A stretch of DNA of 64,000 nucleotides from Spiroplasma apis B31 (GTDB lineage: Bacteria; Bacillota_I; Bacilli_A; Mycoplasmatales; Mycoplasmataceae). Made by a program: the position numbers and the translations under genes. The notes under the pieces were generated by a model, which saw nothing but the letters and a program-made list of their open reading frames with translations, had not been told where the DNA came from and made no database searches. The stretch covers positions 62,001 through 126,000 of the forward strand of contig NC_022998.1 of the NCBI RefSeq assembly GCF_000500935.1, read 5' to 3'. Below, piece by piece: positions 17,293 to 26,326 of the stretch (position 1 is its first letter; every line of letters starts with the position of its first letter).

Positions 17293-17779
17293 TACTAAAA
17301 AAACCAAAATTTTTCTAGACTTAATTTTTTTAAAATATATGTATTAAGAAATTTATAGTGGTAAAATAATTTTGCGTAATTACAAAAGTCAATTAAATAA
17401 ATCAAAGATCGTTTAATTCTTTTGAAAAATCTTAATATTTAGTTATGGTAAATTTAAAAATTATATCCATATAACTTATTTAGATATGTGATTAATAATG
17501 AATGGGTGTTCAAATTGTTTATCGTATAAAATTACTCTTTTATTTATCAATATTTACATAAATCTTTTTCAATATAAAATTTATTAATATATCCACAGTT
17601 CATTGATTCCTTAACTAAAGAATTAATTTAACGGATTTATACTTTTGTATTTTACTAGATTTTTGTCTTTGTTTATACCCAATTACAGTTGGTGATTGAG
17701 TGTAAGTTGATTAATTTTATTGAAATGAAAATCAAATATTAATGTTTTATTAAGTACTTATATAAAGAAAGGTGAAAAT
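17293..17779. other. Intergenic region with no recognised gene
   Basis: About 490 bases of very AT-rich sequence with frequent stops in all frames. I see no tRNA, repeat array or conserved RNA. It presumably contains the promoter of the following ABC exporter pair; AGAAAGGTG at 17766-17774 is the ribosome site. Confidence 0.5.
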
Positions 17780-19585
17780 ATGCAAACATTGGACGAAAGA
17801 GTTAAATTTTTCTCTAAAACAAAATTCAAAAAGCTTGGTATTCTTTTAAAAGAAGTTGCAAAAGAATATCCTGTACTTTTTTCTTCATATATAATAATAG
17901 CTTTTATAGATACATTTTTGTTCTCTGCTATGTCTATTGTTATTACGAACCTGATAAAAGTTATAAATCAAGAAGGTGGTAATTCTCTTTTTGGGCTACC
18001 AATGTATTGATATAATTGAGCAATAATTGGTGCTGTCATGATAGTATGTTTTGCTTTTTCGGAATTTACACTAAATTATCTTAGTGGATTGCTTACAAGA
18101 AAAGCTGAAATTTTTCTAAGGGTGAAATGTTTAGATAACTTAACTAATGTAGACCTTAGTTTTTATTCAAAAAATCAGATTGGAAATATAATGACAAAAA
18201 TAGTTGGTGACTCACAAGGGGTAGCCGATGGTTTGAATGAGTTTGGTGTCAACCTGATATATTGTTTTGTAATGTTCACCACTGTTAATACAGTTATGTT
18301 CTCATTAGATGTCAAAATTGCTAGCATTTGTTTAGGACTATTTTTCATATTATTTTTAATATCTTGAATAATATTTTTCGCATACCAAAAAGCACTTATA
18401 ACATCAATCGATTATAAACAAAAACTTGATACTGATAATACTGATCGATTAATGAATATTCGATTAATAAAGTCTTCTGGAACAGAACTTTATGAATTAG
18501 AACGTGTCAAAGAATTTAATAAGGAATACGATAAAAAAATCAACAAAACTGTTAAAATTAACGCTTGTCTTGTTATATTTTCAAACTTCTTTGGTTGAAT
18601 TCTCCCTGGAATTACAACTATATTGGTTATTGTATTGTATAAAGATATTTGAGAGTTAAAAAGAGTTGTCTCATTGGCTATTGGATTTATGTCATCTGTT
18701 TCAATCTTAACCTCGGCTGTATTTTTATTGCCAATTATTTTAAGAGCTTTATCAAGAACCATAAACTGTAATACAAGACTAAACTTTATATATTCTCATG
18801 AATCATTAATAAAATACATAGAGGAACCAATAGTTGTGAATAACATTGACTCTATTGAGTTTAAAGATGTAGAATTTTCTTACCCTGAATCACCTTCAAA
18901 ACCAATCCTCCCAACCACAAACCTAGTGTTTGAAAAAGGAAAAAGTTATGCTTTTGTTGGGGAGACAGGTAGCGGTAAGTCTACAATTGCAAAACTGTTA
19001 CTTAGATTTTATGACCCTAAAGCAGGAAGTGTTCTTATCAATGGGGTTAACTTAAAAGAAATAGATCTTCCTAGTTATTTAGATAAAGTTGGTTATGTTG
19101 AACAAGAGCCGCAAATATTATATGGTACTGTAATGGATAATATAAAATATGCTAAGTTTGATGCTTCAGATGAAGAAGTAATTGAAGCGGCTAAAAAGGC
19201 CCAGATTCACGACTTCATATTAACTCTTTCTGATAAATATGACACTATTCTAGGGGAAAGAGGATTTATGTTATCAGGAGGACAAAAACAAAGATTAGTA
19301 ATAGCTAGAATGTTTTTGAAAAATCCTCAATTATTGATTCTTGATGAGGCAACTAGTGCATTAGATAATATTGTCGAAAAAGAGGTACAAGCACAATTAG
19401 ATAAATTGGTGGTGGGAAGAACTACAATTGTTATTGCTCACCGTCTTTCAACAATTAAAAATTGTGACAAAATTGTTGTTTTAGGGCAAAATGCTCAAGG
19501 AATAATACAAATCGGAACATTTGATGAGTTAAAAGAACAAGAAGGAAGATTTAATAAGTTATATAAAGCAGGATTAATGGGATAG
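17780..19585 (+). CDS. ABC exporter half-transporter, first of a heterodimer
   Basis: This 601-residue protein fuses an N-terminal six-helix export-type membrane domain (about residues 30-330) to an ABC ATPase domain (about 355-600). Walker [10 protein letters not shown], signature LSGGQKQRL, Walker [13 protein letters not shown] and a switch His in IAHRLST are intact. The next gene encodes a similar protein, so the two probably form a MdlA/MdlB- or LmrCD-like heterodimer for drugs, lipids or peptides; the substrate cannot be read from sequence. UGA Trp codons occur inside the membrane domain (18008, 18017, 18365, 18596, 18650). Confidence 0.92.
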
Positions 19586-19597
19586 AAGGAGGTTTTT

Positions 19598-21469
19598 ATG
19601 GCATTCGAAGAAAAAGCAAAAGAAAGTATCTTAAAACAAATAGATAAAGAACGCAAACATAGAGGTTATATAAAAATGATTTTTATTTACCTAAGAAAAC
19701 ATAAGTTGTTTGCTCTTTTAATTTTTATCCTAGCACTAATGGCTAGCTCAATTGGAGTATCTGCTCCTTTGGTTATGAAACAAATTATGAAGTGTCTTGT
19801 TGATATGACAGATGAGAGCCAATCTCAACCAACAACAAAGTTTATTATTTGAGACTTTACTTGATTGCATTGAGTTTTACTTCAAATAGCAATGTATTGT
19901 GGTCTTGGAATAAGTATTTTTTCATTAAATATTGCAGTAGGTAAGTTAGGTAAAGCTGTCGAAATATATTTAAGAAATGAAACTGTACGAGCACTTATTC
20001 AACAAGATATTTCATACTATTCTGATAAGAAAATCGGAGAAATTCTTACTAAGTTGGGTGCAGACACTTGAATAATTGGTGAACAAACTCAAAATATTCC
20101 AATGATGATTCTTATCGCTATATTCAACTTTATCGGTTCTTCAGTCGTACTTATCTCAGTTGATTGAAGATTAGGACTAATATCAATGTCTTTTGTTGCT
20201 TTTGGTTTGTCTGCAATTCTGATCTTCTTTTCAAAAGTAAAAAGTTGAATAAAAAAATTACGTACAACAATAACATTCGTTAACGGAGATGTCACTGATA
20301 GAATTGGAACAATTCGTCTTATTAAAGCAAGTGGTACAGAAAGTTACGAGAAAAAAAGATTCAGAGAAATTCACACCGAATTTTATGAAACTGTAAGAGC
20401 TTTCTTCAAAAGACTAAGTTTTGTTCTTACAAGTGCTTTTGTCTCTATTATGGCAATTCAATTACTAATTCTTACAACTGCATACGGGTTTTATAAAAAT
20501 GATACTGAAAAATTACTTATCATTACAACTTCGTTTATCTCAGGATTAGGTACAATGACATCTCCAATCTTTCAGTTATTAAGAGCTTTATTCGGTTTCT
20601 TGATGGCGAACGAATGTACTCGAAGAGTATTTCAAATTATTGATTCTAAGCCAATAATGGATCCACACTTTTATTCAGGTCAAGGAAAAATAATAGATAA
20701 AATAGACAAAGACATAATATTTGAAAATGTTTCTTTTAACTACCCAGAAAAACCCGAAAAAAATGTATTACCAAAATTTAACTTTGTTTTTGAAAAAGGA
20801 AAAAGCTATGCTTTTGTAGGGGAAACTGGTAGTGGTAAATCTACAATATCCAAATTATTATTAAGATTTTACGACCCAACAGAAGGACGAATATTGATTA
20901 ATGGAGAAGTTGATTTAAAAGAGTTACACTTAAAATCATATCTTGACCTCGTTGGTTATGTCGAACAAGAACCCCAAATAATGTTTGGAACTGTTAAAGA
21001 AAATATAAAATACACAACTCCAAATGTCACCGATGATGAAGTTATCGAAGCGGCTAAAAAAGCAGACCTTCATAATTTAATAATGTCTTGACCAAACAAG
21101 TACGAAACTATTCTTGGTGAAAGAGGGTTTATGTTGTCGGGAGGACAAAAACAAAGACTAGTAATAGCTAGAATGTTTTTAAAAAACCCACAAATTCTAA
21201 TTTTAGATGAGGCAACCAGTGCCTTAGACAATATTGTTGAAAAAGAAATTCAAGCAGAATTAGAAAAACTTATGATCGGTAGAACTAGTGTTTCTATAGC
21301 TCACAGACTTTCAACAATTAAAAATTGTGATCATATTATAGTTCTAGCACCAGGGAAAGGTGTAGTCCAAATTGGTACGTTTGATGAATTAAAAAATACT
21401 GAAGGACATTTTAAAAAACTATATGATGCAGGATTGATGAAAACCGAGGAAGTTAAGAACTTGATTTAA
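19598..21469 (+). CDS. ABC exporter half-transporter, second of a heterodimer
   Basis: The product is 623 residues with the same plan as its neighbour: membrane domain (about residues 25-345) then ATPase (about 370-615) with [30 protein letters not shown] and IAHRLST. The ATPase domains of the two genes are nearly alike over long stretches, while the membrane domains differ, as expected for an old tandem duplication that became a heterodimer. Both keep the catalytic Glu after Walker B, so neither site looks degenerate. The gene starts 12 bases after its partner with GAAGGAGG as ribosome site and is closed by a strong terminator. Confidence 0.92.
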
Positions 21470-21781: not shown

Positions 21782-22190
21782 GGGGGTGCCCTGGTTTCGA
21801 CAGGATATATCCTTGCTATAACTGCAGTGGTTTGGTAGACCTTAATACTTCTAGGTTTGATAAAATGCAAACAAAAATAAAAATGAATTTGAAATGCCAG
21901 CATTCATGATCAATAATGCATCAGCTGGAGTTGCTTTAGCAGCTTAATTAAACAATAGTTTAATAGCATTCAACACTATTCGATGTTCTTGTACTTCATT
22001 GTGTAGTGCCTTACCTAGTACAATAGAGTGAACTAATTTGGTGATAAACTCACTCGAAATTAAACACCAACACTAAAAACGATTTTTTGTTAACTTCTGT
22101 AGTTTCTAGTGTATATAAAAGTTAACTAAACTGTAGACGTTATGGTTAGGAGTATTTTGGACGCGGGTTCGATTCCCGCCATCTCCACCA
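21782..22190 (+). ncRNA. ssrA: Transfer-messenger RNA (tmRNA)
   Basis: tmRNA rescues stalled ribosomes by acting as tRNA-Ala and then as message. The 5' end GGGGGTG pairs with CATCTCC at the 3' end before an encoded ACCA, and the T-arm GGGTTCGATTCCC is present. The 5' domain has the diagnostic CCCTGGTTTCGACAGG. The resume codon is GCA at 21867, and the tag reading frame runs to TAA at 21945-21947. The 26-residue tag begins ANKNKNE, contains EMPAF, and ends ALAA. Its hydrophobic C-terminus fits the mollicute situation in which Lon rather than ClpXP degrades tagged proteins (known for Mesoplasma florum). A T run follows directly and may end transcription. Confidence 0.97.
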
Positions 22191-22233
22191 TTTTTTTTGT
22201 TTAATTATAGTATAAGAAAGGAATGTGACATCT

Positions 22234-24180
22234 ATGAATTTTACATCATCGCTAATCGCATGTCTTTCTTACATTATAATTACAATTTTAATATTTACCA
22301 TCACGTGAGGACTCTCAAAACATCTTTTTGAAAAAATAAAAATTTACTACGAATTAGTTCTTGGCGTAGCACTTGGTGTTTTATCTTTGTTTGGTGTAAT
22401 TATAATTTCTCTTCTAATGTCTAAGGATAAAAATTTACAGTTATCAATTTTGTTACCTATATTTTTATTTTGAACTTGTTTATTATTCATTTCTCCTTAT
22501 TCTTCTATTGGGGTTCTTAGTTGTAATTTAATAGCTCTTTTGTTATTTCCAAAAATATTCCCAGAATATTTCGGACAAATCGAAGGAGCAGCAATGATCT
22601 CAATAGTGGTTTTAGCATACTCAGTAACCTTTATATTATTTTTTATAAGTTTGTTTTATAAAAAAATAACAAAAGGACTGATATGATCAGTTACAACGTT
22701 CTTTATTTTATTGAGTGGTTTTGTATCATTCATGCCAATCATAAAAGATAAAACAGCTTTAAATAATTTTGGTACCTTATTATTATGGTTGGGTGTAAGT
22801 TATCTAGCATATGCATACTTAACAGTTGTTAATCAAGTTCACACTCATGCAATTAAATTGCAAAACATTGTAAGGTATGAAGATCAATATTATCTTAACT
22901 CTGCATCTGCACACGAACAAATTTTGAATAATATTTGAAAAAATAAAATCAGGTACGGTATTTATTTAAATTATTATATATCCAACTTTGAGAAGTTTGA
23001 AACAAAAGTAAATACGAACATTAAAGAAACTATAGTATCTGAAATCTCTTCACAAGCTTACAACTTGTTCTCCAATAAGTTTTCGGGTTCAATATTCTTC
23101 AAGCCGAATTACAAAAACTTTGGGGTTTTCATTCCCTTAATGGAACATGACCAATTAGCTGACAAAGAGAAAAAAGAAGTCTTATCGAAGGAAGTGGAAC
23201 TAATAATCAAAAGCATTACCTCAGATTTCTTTATAGAGAATTATAGAGTAAGTGTAAAAATTAAATCAGTCATGTCATTTTATGGTCTACATTCTAACAA
23301 TCTTGATACACTTCTTGAATATAATAACTTAGCACAAAGTCACATAACCTTTGCTAACGAGCAAGTATTAAATGAGATTCAACCACAACAAATAACTAAA
23401 CAAAAAAATAGAAATAAAAAGATGCTTTCTTTAAATGAAATTGTAGCATTGAATCACTGTTCTGTGCTATTTGAACCTATTTATTTCTCAGGGATAAAAG
23501 ACTTTTTTGGTTACAATTTGAATAATATGATCGAAGGTTCTGAAGTAAATTCATCTCTTTTTGAAGAAAATAAAAACATAATTGAAAATTATGGACTTCA
23601 GTCTTTATTTACTAGATATCTTGCACTCTATTCTATTAAAACATTGGCTAAATACAAAATTAAAGATAAAAAATTATTTTTAAGTTATGACATTGGTTAC
23701 TTTACTAGTCCAGAATTTGACTTCCAAGATTTTATAACTAAAATTAATTTATATAAAATAAATAAAAAGAACTTGGTAATTTGTTTTGATATAACACAAG
23801 AAGTGGTTAACAAAAATTACCTAGAAAAAAACATTAATCTTTGCATGGAAAAAGGACTTAAGATAGCTGTAACTAACTTCGGAGCACTTGGAACAGATTT
23901 TAGCTTGTTGGAATTTTATAAACCTACTTATATCTTTTTAGAAGGAGACATTGTAAAAAAAATTAACTTAATAAAAGAGAATGAAGCTATATTGTTAAAC
24001 TGTATAGCTATTGCAAATAAACTAAAGGCTAAATTAATTGCACAAAGAGTAGATACTTATATGATTTATAAAACTTTAAAATCAAAAGGTGTAGAATATT
24101 TTAGTGGCGACCTAATAGGAAGCTCAAGTGAACCTACACCATTAATTGGTACAGAACTTAGATATTTATTAAACAAATAA
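22234..24180 (+). CDS. Membrane protein with degenerate GGDEF-like and EAL domains
   Basis: The 648-residue protein has about seven hydrophobic segments (residues 5-215). Next comes a region with the outline of a GGDEF domain (about 235-340; the GGDEF loop position reads KNFGVFIPL), then an EAL-fold domain (about 405-645). EAL landmarks are recognisable but catalytic residues are gone: the EAL motif reads NLN in FFGYNLNN, the DDFG motif reads TNFG (residues 547-550), the KID motif reads EGD, and the later AEGVE reads AQRVD. It therefore should not make or break cyclic di-GMP. Ligand-sensing or scaffolding is possible. It lies alone after tmRNA and 19 bases before mgtE. Confidence 0.75.
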
Positions 24181-24199: not shown

Positions 24200-25651
24200 G
24201 TGGAAAAAAATAAAATACAAGAGTTAACAAAAAATATCCTTCATTGTCTAGAAGAGAATAATGTAAAGAAATTAAGAGAAATAAGTGAAGACAACTACCC
24301 AGCGGACATAGCCGAAGCATTGGAAGAACTTGAAAACAAGTATATTTTGATAGCTTTAAGGTTATTCTCTACTGAAATAAGTGGGGAGATATTTACTTTC
24401 TTAGATACTGAAATACAAGAGGAAGTTGTAAAGCAATTCTCTTCAAAACAAATAAAAGAACTTTTTGAGGAAATCTACACAGATGATGTTGTAGAAATAC
24501 TCGAAGAAATGCCTTCTAACATCGCTAAAAAAATTTTACGTTCTGCTTCTAGAGAATCTAGAATGCAGATTAATGAAATTTTAAAGTATGAAGAATACTC
24601 AGCAGGAAGCATCATGAATGTCGAGTATACTAAACTTCGTATGAATTGGACGGTTGAAAAAGCGATTGAAACAATCAAGGCCGAAAGAGATAAAACTGAG
24701 GAAGTCTACGATTTTTTTGTTGTTGACGAACTTAATAATTTAAAAGGATTTGTTGAACTTAAAGAGTTATTTTTCTCCAAACCAGAACAGTTAGTCAAAG
24801 ATGTTATGGATGATAGAATAATTTATTCTTATACCAAAACAGACCAAGAAGAAGTAACAGAAAAGTTTAAAAAATATGATATTACAACTTTACCAATTTT
24901 AAATAGTCAAAACAAGCTTGTAGGAATAATAACTGTCGACGATATAATTGATGTCATAGAAGAAGAAGCAACTGAAGATATTCAAAAAATGGCTGGAATT
25001 AGTCCAACAGAAGACGAGTACTTCAAAACTAGTGTTTGAAAAATGGTGAGATCTAGAACCTTATGATTATTGATATTAATGTTGTCTGCAACCTTAACCC
25101 AAATAGTTATCATACTTTTCATGAAAAAGTATAATATAGATACTAAAGTTTCAAGTGCAAATGGAACATGAAATATAACTTATATAGTCACAATGCTCCT
25201 TATGCCTTTGATAACCGTTATATCTGGCACTTCTGGAAACGCCGCCAGTCAAACATCGACGATGGTCGTTCGTTCATTATCTTTAAAAGAAGTTGAAGCT
25301 AAGGACTTTTTTAAGATTTTATGAAAGGAACTGCGTGTTGCATTTTTTGTGGGATTAATACTTATACTTGTGAACTTTATAAGAATGATTGTTATTTATA
25401 GTGTCGAATACAAAGGAAATATTAATAGACAAGAATTATGACACACTATCGCAACAATAACTATTGCTATGTTTTTAACTTTGATGGTTTCAAAAACTCT
25501 TGGTGTTTTGTTACCGATATTTGCCAAAAAAATAAAGTTGGATCCTGCAATAATGGCGGCACCCTTACTCACTACATTGGTGGACGCTCTTGCTACCGCA
25601 ATATTCTTCTCAGTTGGTCTAATATTCTTTATGCCCCAAATTAGCGTTTAG
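24200..25651 (+). CDS. mgtE: Magnesium transporter MgtE
   Basis: MgtE is a Mg2+-gated Mg2+ channel. The 483 residues comprise the N domain (about 1-125, with many acidic residues and the EILEEMPSNIAKKIL repeat), two CBS domains (about 130-255, with SAGSIMN and LVGIITVDDIID), and a five-helix membrane domain (about 280-480) that includes the conserved SGTSGNAASQTSTMVVRSL pore segment. Start is GTG 24200 with AAAAGGAG upstream. UGA codons in the membrane domain encode Trp. No Mg2+ riboswitch is visible in the short upstream gap, so control is probably at the protein level through the N and CBS domains. Confidence 0.95.
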
Positions 25652-25659
25652 GAGTTTTC

Positions 25660-26310
25660 ATGAGATTAAGAAATAAAAGATGAACAGATGAGTATATTGA
25701 AAAGAATAAACACAAAATGTTAGATACTACACACAAAGCAGATTTAAAAAAGCTTTTCGATAATGAGAATGAAGTTTATTTAGAAATAGGCTGCGGTAAA
25801 GGACAATTTAGTATTGAAAGCGCAATAAAATATCCAAATAGAAACTTTATTGCAATGGAAAAAGAAAAAACTGTCATTGGCGTGGCTTTAAAAAAAGCAT
25901 TAGAAATCAATAGTCAAGAGTTAAATAATCTATACTTTTTAAATAGCTACGCCGAAAACCTAGAAAATATCTTTGAAAAAAACTCATTAGGGGGAATATA
26001 TTTAAATTTTTCGGACCCTTGACCAAAGTCAAGACACTATAAAAAAAGATTGACTTATCAAAGTTTTCTAGAAGTTTATTTTAAGATACTTAAAGAAAAT
26101 GCTATTATTGAGATTAAAACAGACAATGATGATTTATTCAATTTTAGTATCGAACAAGCAAAAAGCTCAAAATTTGAAGTAATTTACAGCACCACTGACT
26201 TATACAATGATTTTGAACAACTTCAAAATAATATACCGACCGAATACGAAATTAAGTTCCATAAAATGGGCAAAAACATAAATAAATTAATATTAAAAAA
26301 ATGTCCTTAA
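25660..26310 (+). CDS. trmB: tRNA (guanine-N7-)-methyltransferase
   Basis: TrmB methylates G46 in the tRNA variable loop using S-adenosylmethionine. The 216-residue product has the expected length. The SAM-binding motif is EIGCGKGQF, followed by acidic residue-ending strands and the family motif NFSDPWPKSRHYKKRL, whose Trp is encoded by UGA at 26020. ATG 25660 lies 8 bases after mgtE and has TAGGAG overlapping the mgtE stop. The gene end overlaps the left arm of a bidirectional terminator. Confidence 0.95.
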
Positions 26311-26326
26311 TTAAAAGGACATTTTT
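26296..26326. terminator. Bidirectional terminator between trmB and convergent gene
   Basis: Twelve-base inverted repeat (26296-26307 with 26315-26326) containing the last trmB codons; A and T tracts on both sides serve both directions. Confidence 0.85.

Follow-up and report, generated by a model that had tools for sequence, protein, structure and literature searches.

Several described proteins carry GGDEF or EAL domains, some of them degenerate. The EAL domain of LapD binds cyclic di-GMP, and the protein also possesses a periplasmic sensor. CsrD of E. coli acts, together with RNase E, on the decay of the CsrB and CsrC RNAs. In YdiV/RflP-type proteins the dead EAL domain serves protein contacts. 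RflP has been named as a degenerate EAL protein (PMC5635695). RgsP of Sinorhizobium consists of 7TMR-DISM, PAS, GGDEF and EAL domains, and its essential function in growth is independent of the EAL domain and of cyclic di-GMP (PMC6107284). According to a paper on other mollicutes, use of cyclic di-GMP is known in no mollicute except Acholeplasma laidlawii; the same paper describes an EAL gene, U1, of Ca. Oceanoplasma callogorgiae, whose product has a signal peptide and one membrane segment and for which the authors suggest degradation of cyclic di-GMP (PMC11535214).

Locus and domain folds in Spiroplasma apis

The window, that is, the whole stretch of 64,000 nucleotides analysed here, covers bases 62001-126000 of the single 1,160,554-base chromosome of S. 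apis B31. It contains a gene (Table 1) that reads through without a break under table 4, four of its codons being TGA for tryptophan. The ribosome site AAGAAAGGA lies 12 nt ahead of the ATG at 22234, and the GTG at 22225 is a possible alternative start. Thus a sequence-only reading of this DNA, in which the gene was called long and intact with a normal ribosome site, holds on both points. The gene starts 43 nt after the end of the tmRNA gene and is followed after 19 nt by an mgtE-like gene, and the latter after 8 nt by a trmB-like gene. Since a terminator-like hairpin follows trmB, the GGDEF-EAL, mgtE-like and trmB-like genes are probably co-transcribed. Upstream of the tmRNA gene, two ABC-transporter genes lie side by side at 17645-21469. 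Their ATPase parts at the C-terminus are closely similar (73% identity over that stretch), and together they probably encode a heterodimeric exporter.

Table 1. Features of the GGDEF-EAL locus, in window positions
Feature	Positions	Strand	Remarks
tmRNA gene	21782..22190	+	conserved upstream neighbour of the GGDEF-EAL gene
CDS	22234..24180	+	648 aa, table 4; protein with seven-helix membrane part, S-helix, GGDEF-like and EAL-like parts
Membrane part, residues 1-205	22234..22848	+	seven predicted helices, no family match; AlphaFold2 model, Pfam scan of 19 members
S-helix, residues 206-222	22849..22899	+	continuous with TM7; most conserved stretch (HALKLQNIVxYD)
Degenerate GGDEF-fold domain, residues 223-380	22900..23373	+	domain model and fold search
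Hairpin holding GGDEF in active cyclases	23095..23130	+	here FFKPNYKNFGVF; conserved in its own right
Degenerate EAL-fold domain, residues 405-640	23446..24153	+	Pfam E 1e-17; Z about 25
EAL motif position (428-430)	23515..23523	+	reads NLN
DDFG motif position (547-550)	23872..23883	+	reads TNFG
KID motif position (568-570)	23935..23943	+	reads FLE
AEG(V/I)E motif position (603-607)	24040..24054	+	reads AQRVD
mgtE-like Mg2+ transporter gene	24200..25651	+	conserved downstream neighbour outside genus g8; name by sequence recognition
trmB-like tRNA methyltransferase gene	25660..26310	+	conserved neighbour; name by sequence recognition
Terminator-like hairpin, 3' of trmB	26297..26326	+	

The AlphaFold2 model of the full protein, built on 19 orthologs (mean pLDDT 86, pTM 0.57), contains seven long hydrophobic helices (residues 3-26, 36-62, 70-86, 88-108, 119-141, 147-169 and 173-219), the number that had been read from the letters for the membrane part. 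The last helix extends to residue 219 as the S-helix and is followed by two alpha/beta domains. The membrane part, residues 1-205, has no Pfam match in the 19 members scanned, the sensor families 7TMR-DISM and MASE included.

EAL is the single Pfam domain found in the protein (PF00563, E=1.1e-17, residues 448-629). As the same family matches in all 19 diverse orthologs tested, the assignment is far beyond chance. Compared with solved structures, the EAL part by itself aligns with Z about 25 and rmsd 2.9 over 233 residues, so that profile and fold both place it in the EAL superfamily. The GGDEF domain has no match in the Pfam scan of the protein and is assigned to its superfamily by fold. Modelled alone (pLDDT 87.7, pTM 0.85), it gives a Foldseek E of 1e-7, and aligns with the GGDEF domain of YfiN with Z 16.4 and rmsd 2.7 over 166 residues. 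The best full-length matches among the solved structures are the GGDEF-EAL proteins PA0575, MorA, DosP, PA0861 and LapD, and it is the cytoplasmic half that aligns with these tandem proteins. These assignments come from Pfam E-values, fold searches and domain models and are therefore independent of the reading of motifs. Both domains of the sequence-only reading have thus been recovered by profile search and structure prediction, EAL by Pfam and by fold, GGDEF by fold only.

Lost active sites and selection

Motif columns were read from an alignment that included 12 intact EAL domains of this class. In the S. apis protein EALxR reads NLNNM, IEITE reads ICFDI and the AEGIE column reads AQRVD. 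The earlier readings NLN, TNFG and AQRVD were correct. However, the KID column contains FLE, the EGD given for it being two residues off; the correction leaves the conclusion that this motif is lost unchanged. The EAL glutamate is kept in 1 of 41 orthologs and the DDFG aspartates in 1 and 3 of the 41, respectively, whereas the EALxR arginine, the KID lysine, the AEGIE glutamate and the second glutamate of IEITE are kept in none. Thus the residues of an active cyclic di-GMP phosphodiesterase, all considered lost in the sequence-only reading, are indeed all replaced in S. apis and essentially all in the 41 orthologs, and in these orthologs no conserved charged or metal-binding set substitutes for them. 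As the loss is shared by essentially all orthologs, catalysis most likely disappeared before the Spiroplasma radiation.

The GG(D/E)EF loop of active diguanylate cyclases, previously described as unrecognisable, is also missing: the hairpin reads FFKPNYKNFGVF, and Pfam gives no GGDEF match in the protein. In place of the GGDEF loop there is now another, strongly conserved sequence, FFKPNYKTFGVF. No GGDEF domain was matched in the S. apis genome or in any of the 60 genomes of the family; the same search gave a match in eight of the control genomes. The dead protein is the only EAL protein of S. apis. The expectation that cyclic di-GMP signalling is not used here agrees with the search for diguanylate cyclases, which detected none in 60 family genomes.

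The dN/dS ratios were calculated by the Nei-Gojobori method under table 4, and near-identical and saturated pairs were excluded from the conclusion. Most pairs at dS 0.2-0.6 have dN/dS of 0.04-0.18, with the membrane, GGDEF and EAL parts alike. In overlapping pairs the neighbours give 0.06-0.09 (mgtE) and 0.11-0.20 (trmB). Values of 0.3-0.5 come from nearly identical pairs with few changes and from pairs with one truncated copy (genome G026), and values near 1 belong to very distant species pairs, in which saturation leaves no information. Purifying selection maintains the protein, at a level similar to that seen for its housekeeping neighbours. Together with the conserved locus order, this argues against the word 'vestigial' that had been applied to the gene.

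Distribution and history of the locus

Orthologs are present in 41 of the 60 family genomes, including all 20 of the genus of S. apis, and nearly all of them have an open frame. Fibril, the Spiroplasma cytoskeletal protein, was found in 42 of the 60 genomes (in S. apis at G000:C1:474328-475863). The same 42 genomes have full-strength MreB, and the remaining ones only weak cross-matches to it. The dead GGDEF-EAL gene occurs in 41 of the 42 fibril-carrying, helical genomes (truncated in G026, absent from G025) and in none of the 18 genomes without fibril. In the rpoB tree, which covers 17 of these 18, the fibril-negative genomes form one branch with 100% support. The negatives are one clade and therefore represent a single co-loss, so the match with fibril and MreB is suggestive and not proof, and we rejected it as proof of function. 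In the mreB cluster of S. apis, an IS3-type transposase-like ORF (L085, 10613-11620; by sequence recognition) is situated between two mreB genes.

Two further decays are seen inside Spiroplasma, both with fibril and MreB retained. In G026 the membrane part is unreadable in any frame and the cytoplasmic half is open over 482 aa (locus L071), so that this copy may be either in early decay or a shortened form. In G025 neither this gene nor trmB was detected, and one deletion could account for both. Thus the gene is not essential for all helical lineages. In S. helicoides (G036:C1:424287-425818) and in genome G048, which we take to be S. sabaudiense (G048:C1:366301-367830), the fib gene contains in-frame stops or a frame break. 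A review describes both species as helical and their fib gene as probably disrupted (PMC7609405). The dead GGDEF-EAL gene is intact in both genomes, and thus it tracks helicity and MreB rather than fibril itself.

The order across orthologs is tmRNA - gene - mgtE, and in genus g8 tmRNA - gene - trmB (the tmRNA being uncalled in three g8 loci). In the non-helical clade mgtE-trmB persists, and in several genomes the tmRNA is just upstream with the gene gone; in two of them (G001, G002) it is about 110-150 nt from mgtE. Gene order points to the Spiroplasma ancestor as already having had the gene at its present locus, with removal in the non-helical clade. One GGDEF-EAL membrane protein with dead active sites has been kept throughout Spiroplasma history and lost together with helicity in the round relatives.

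No full-length relative was found outside the family, as a full-length profile search gave only EAL-region matches. Nineteen small genomes of the class, each with a single weak EAL match, were considered. About eleven of the 19 encode a lone protein, about 570-610 aa long, that has a membrane segment at its N-terminus and none of the EAL motifs left (loci L167, L169, L174, L176-L180, L182-L184). None of these lone proteins is a full-length relative of the Spiroplasma protein. Retention of dead EAL proteins seems to have happened several times, in parallel, among small-genome relatives.

Candidate functions and known systems

The lost motifs and the purifying selection, which is like that on mgtE and trmB, make a non-enzymatic job, as proposed in the sequence-only reading, the best interpretation, and the protein is probably a sensor or scaffold. 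Specifically, we consider it likely to be a catalytically dead tandem GGDEF-EAL membrane receptor, a pseudoenzyme acting by conformation or protein contacts. The folds, the lost EAL residues, the lack of a detected cyclase, the selection and the ancestral position are what we observe, and the signalling steps would follow this scheme. A cue at the membrane or within it would be sensed by the seven helices, and the resulting change would travel to the GGDEF-EAL pair along TM7 and the S-helix, which run on without a break and are the best conserved stretch of the protein. This pair would neither make nor break, nor most likely bind, cyclic di-GMP, and would alter its contacts with a protein partner. 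A partner within the MreB/fibril swimming machinery would suit the distribution, but this is a guess. A GGDEF-EAL module can then persist after cyclic di-GMP has gone, with selection maintaining it across an entire radiation; small-genome lineages appear to have done this more than once.

A bolder and rather doubtful extension would make this protein the steering receptor that Spiroplasma is missing, a nucleotide-free former cyclic di-GMP sensor that would couple outside cues to reversal of the helical swimming ribbon. It is attractive because Spiroplasma chemotaxis has been shown and no two-component gene was found in the genomes (PMC5289999, PMC8432965). This chemotaxis has no known receptor, and a protein that has seven helices and a cytoplasmic half of signalling type, and that occurs in nearly all helical but in no examined non-helical genomes, is a concrete candidate. 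However, a pair of MreB proteins has been reported to be enough on its own to reconstitute swimming of a minimal cell (PMC9710875), and the ribbon fractions list no seven-helix protein.

Similarly doubtful is a receptor for some other nucleotide, e.g. cyclic di-AMP, GTP or (p)ppGpp, for which the GGDEF/EAL pocket would have been re-tooled, with the membrane part or a partner reading out the signal. Each of the two folds contains a nucleotide pocket, the hairpin of the GGDEF domain has been re-formed but is strongly conserved, and mollicutes use cyclic di-AMP (PMC11535214). However, the EAL part has no conserved charged or metal-binding replacement set.

We consider it improbable that the protein is a passive membrane anchor or scaffold of the MreB/fibril ribbon with no role in sensing. 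Such a role would explain why the gene is found in all but one of the 42 genomes with fibril and MreB and is missing from the 18 others, but the 18 represent one clade and one co-loss, G025 and G026 have lost or truncated the gene despite intact fibril and MreB, and two helical species with broken fib have kept it. Moreover, no seven-helix protein is listed among the proteins of ribbon fractions in the published lists, this one included.

Regulation of the neighbouring Mg2+ transporter MgtE is a still weaker candidate. The gene is directly upstream of mgtE in genera g1, g4, g5, g6, g9 and g10, and 19 nt from it in the window. However, function through mgtE is weakened by genus g8, where trmB is next and mgtE is not adjacent, and by the non-helical clade, where mgtE and trmB persist with the gene gone.

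A true cyclic di-GMP receptor of the LapD type is very improbable. The S. apis protein does have the LapD-type architecture, with a membrane part followed by S-helix, degenerate GGDEF and degenerate EAL in the same order, and LapD is among its matches in solved structures. However, unlike LapD, it has no binding motifs, since every ortholog lacks the EALxR arginine and has substitutions elsewhere in the motifs, and no cyclase was detected in the 60 genomes; hence binding of cyclic di-GMP by the Spiroplasma EAL domain appears unlikely from the residues present. Finally, a decaying relic with no function would fit the loss of all enzymatic motifs and the faster evolution relative to fibril (about 50% vs 82-90% identity within the genus), but is refuted by dN/dS far below 1 in all parts, like that of the housekeeping neighbours, and by open frames in nearly all orthologs.

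The preferred reading, a dead receptor acting by conformation or contacts, has precedents in RgsP and CsrD. U1 is similar to the Spiroplasma protein in having an EAL-like region in a mollicute membrane protein, a comparison made by description only. RgsP is a seven-helix receptor with GGDEF-EAL and is linked to cell shape; however, it includes extracytoplasmic and PAS domains, its EAL phosphodiesterase is active, and it serves cell wall growth, whereas Spiroplasma has no cell wall. YdiV/RflP share the dead EAL domain, but are stand-alone and soluble, with neither membrane part nor GGDEF. CsrD is the best NCBIfam match of the S. apis protein (E 4.7e-8, EAL part only), with 31.8 bits against the cut-off of 663 bits for NF008281. 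It resembles the Spiroplasma protein in being a membrane protein with both domains degenerate, which works through other molecules or partners.
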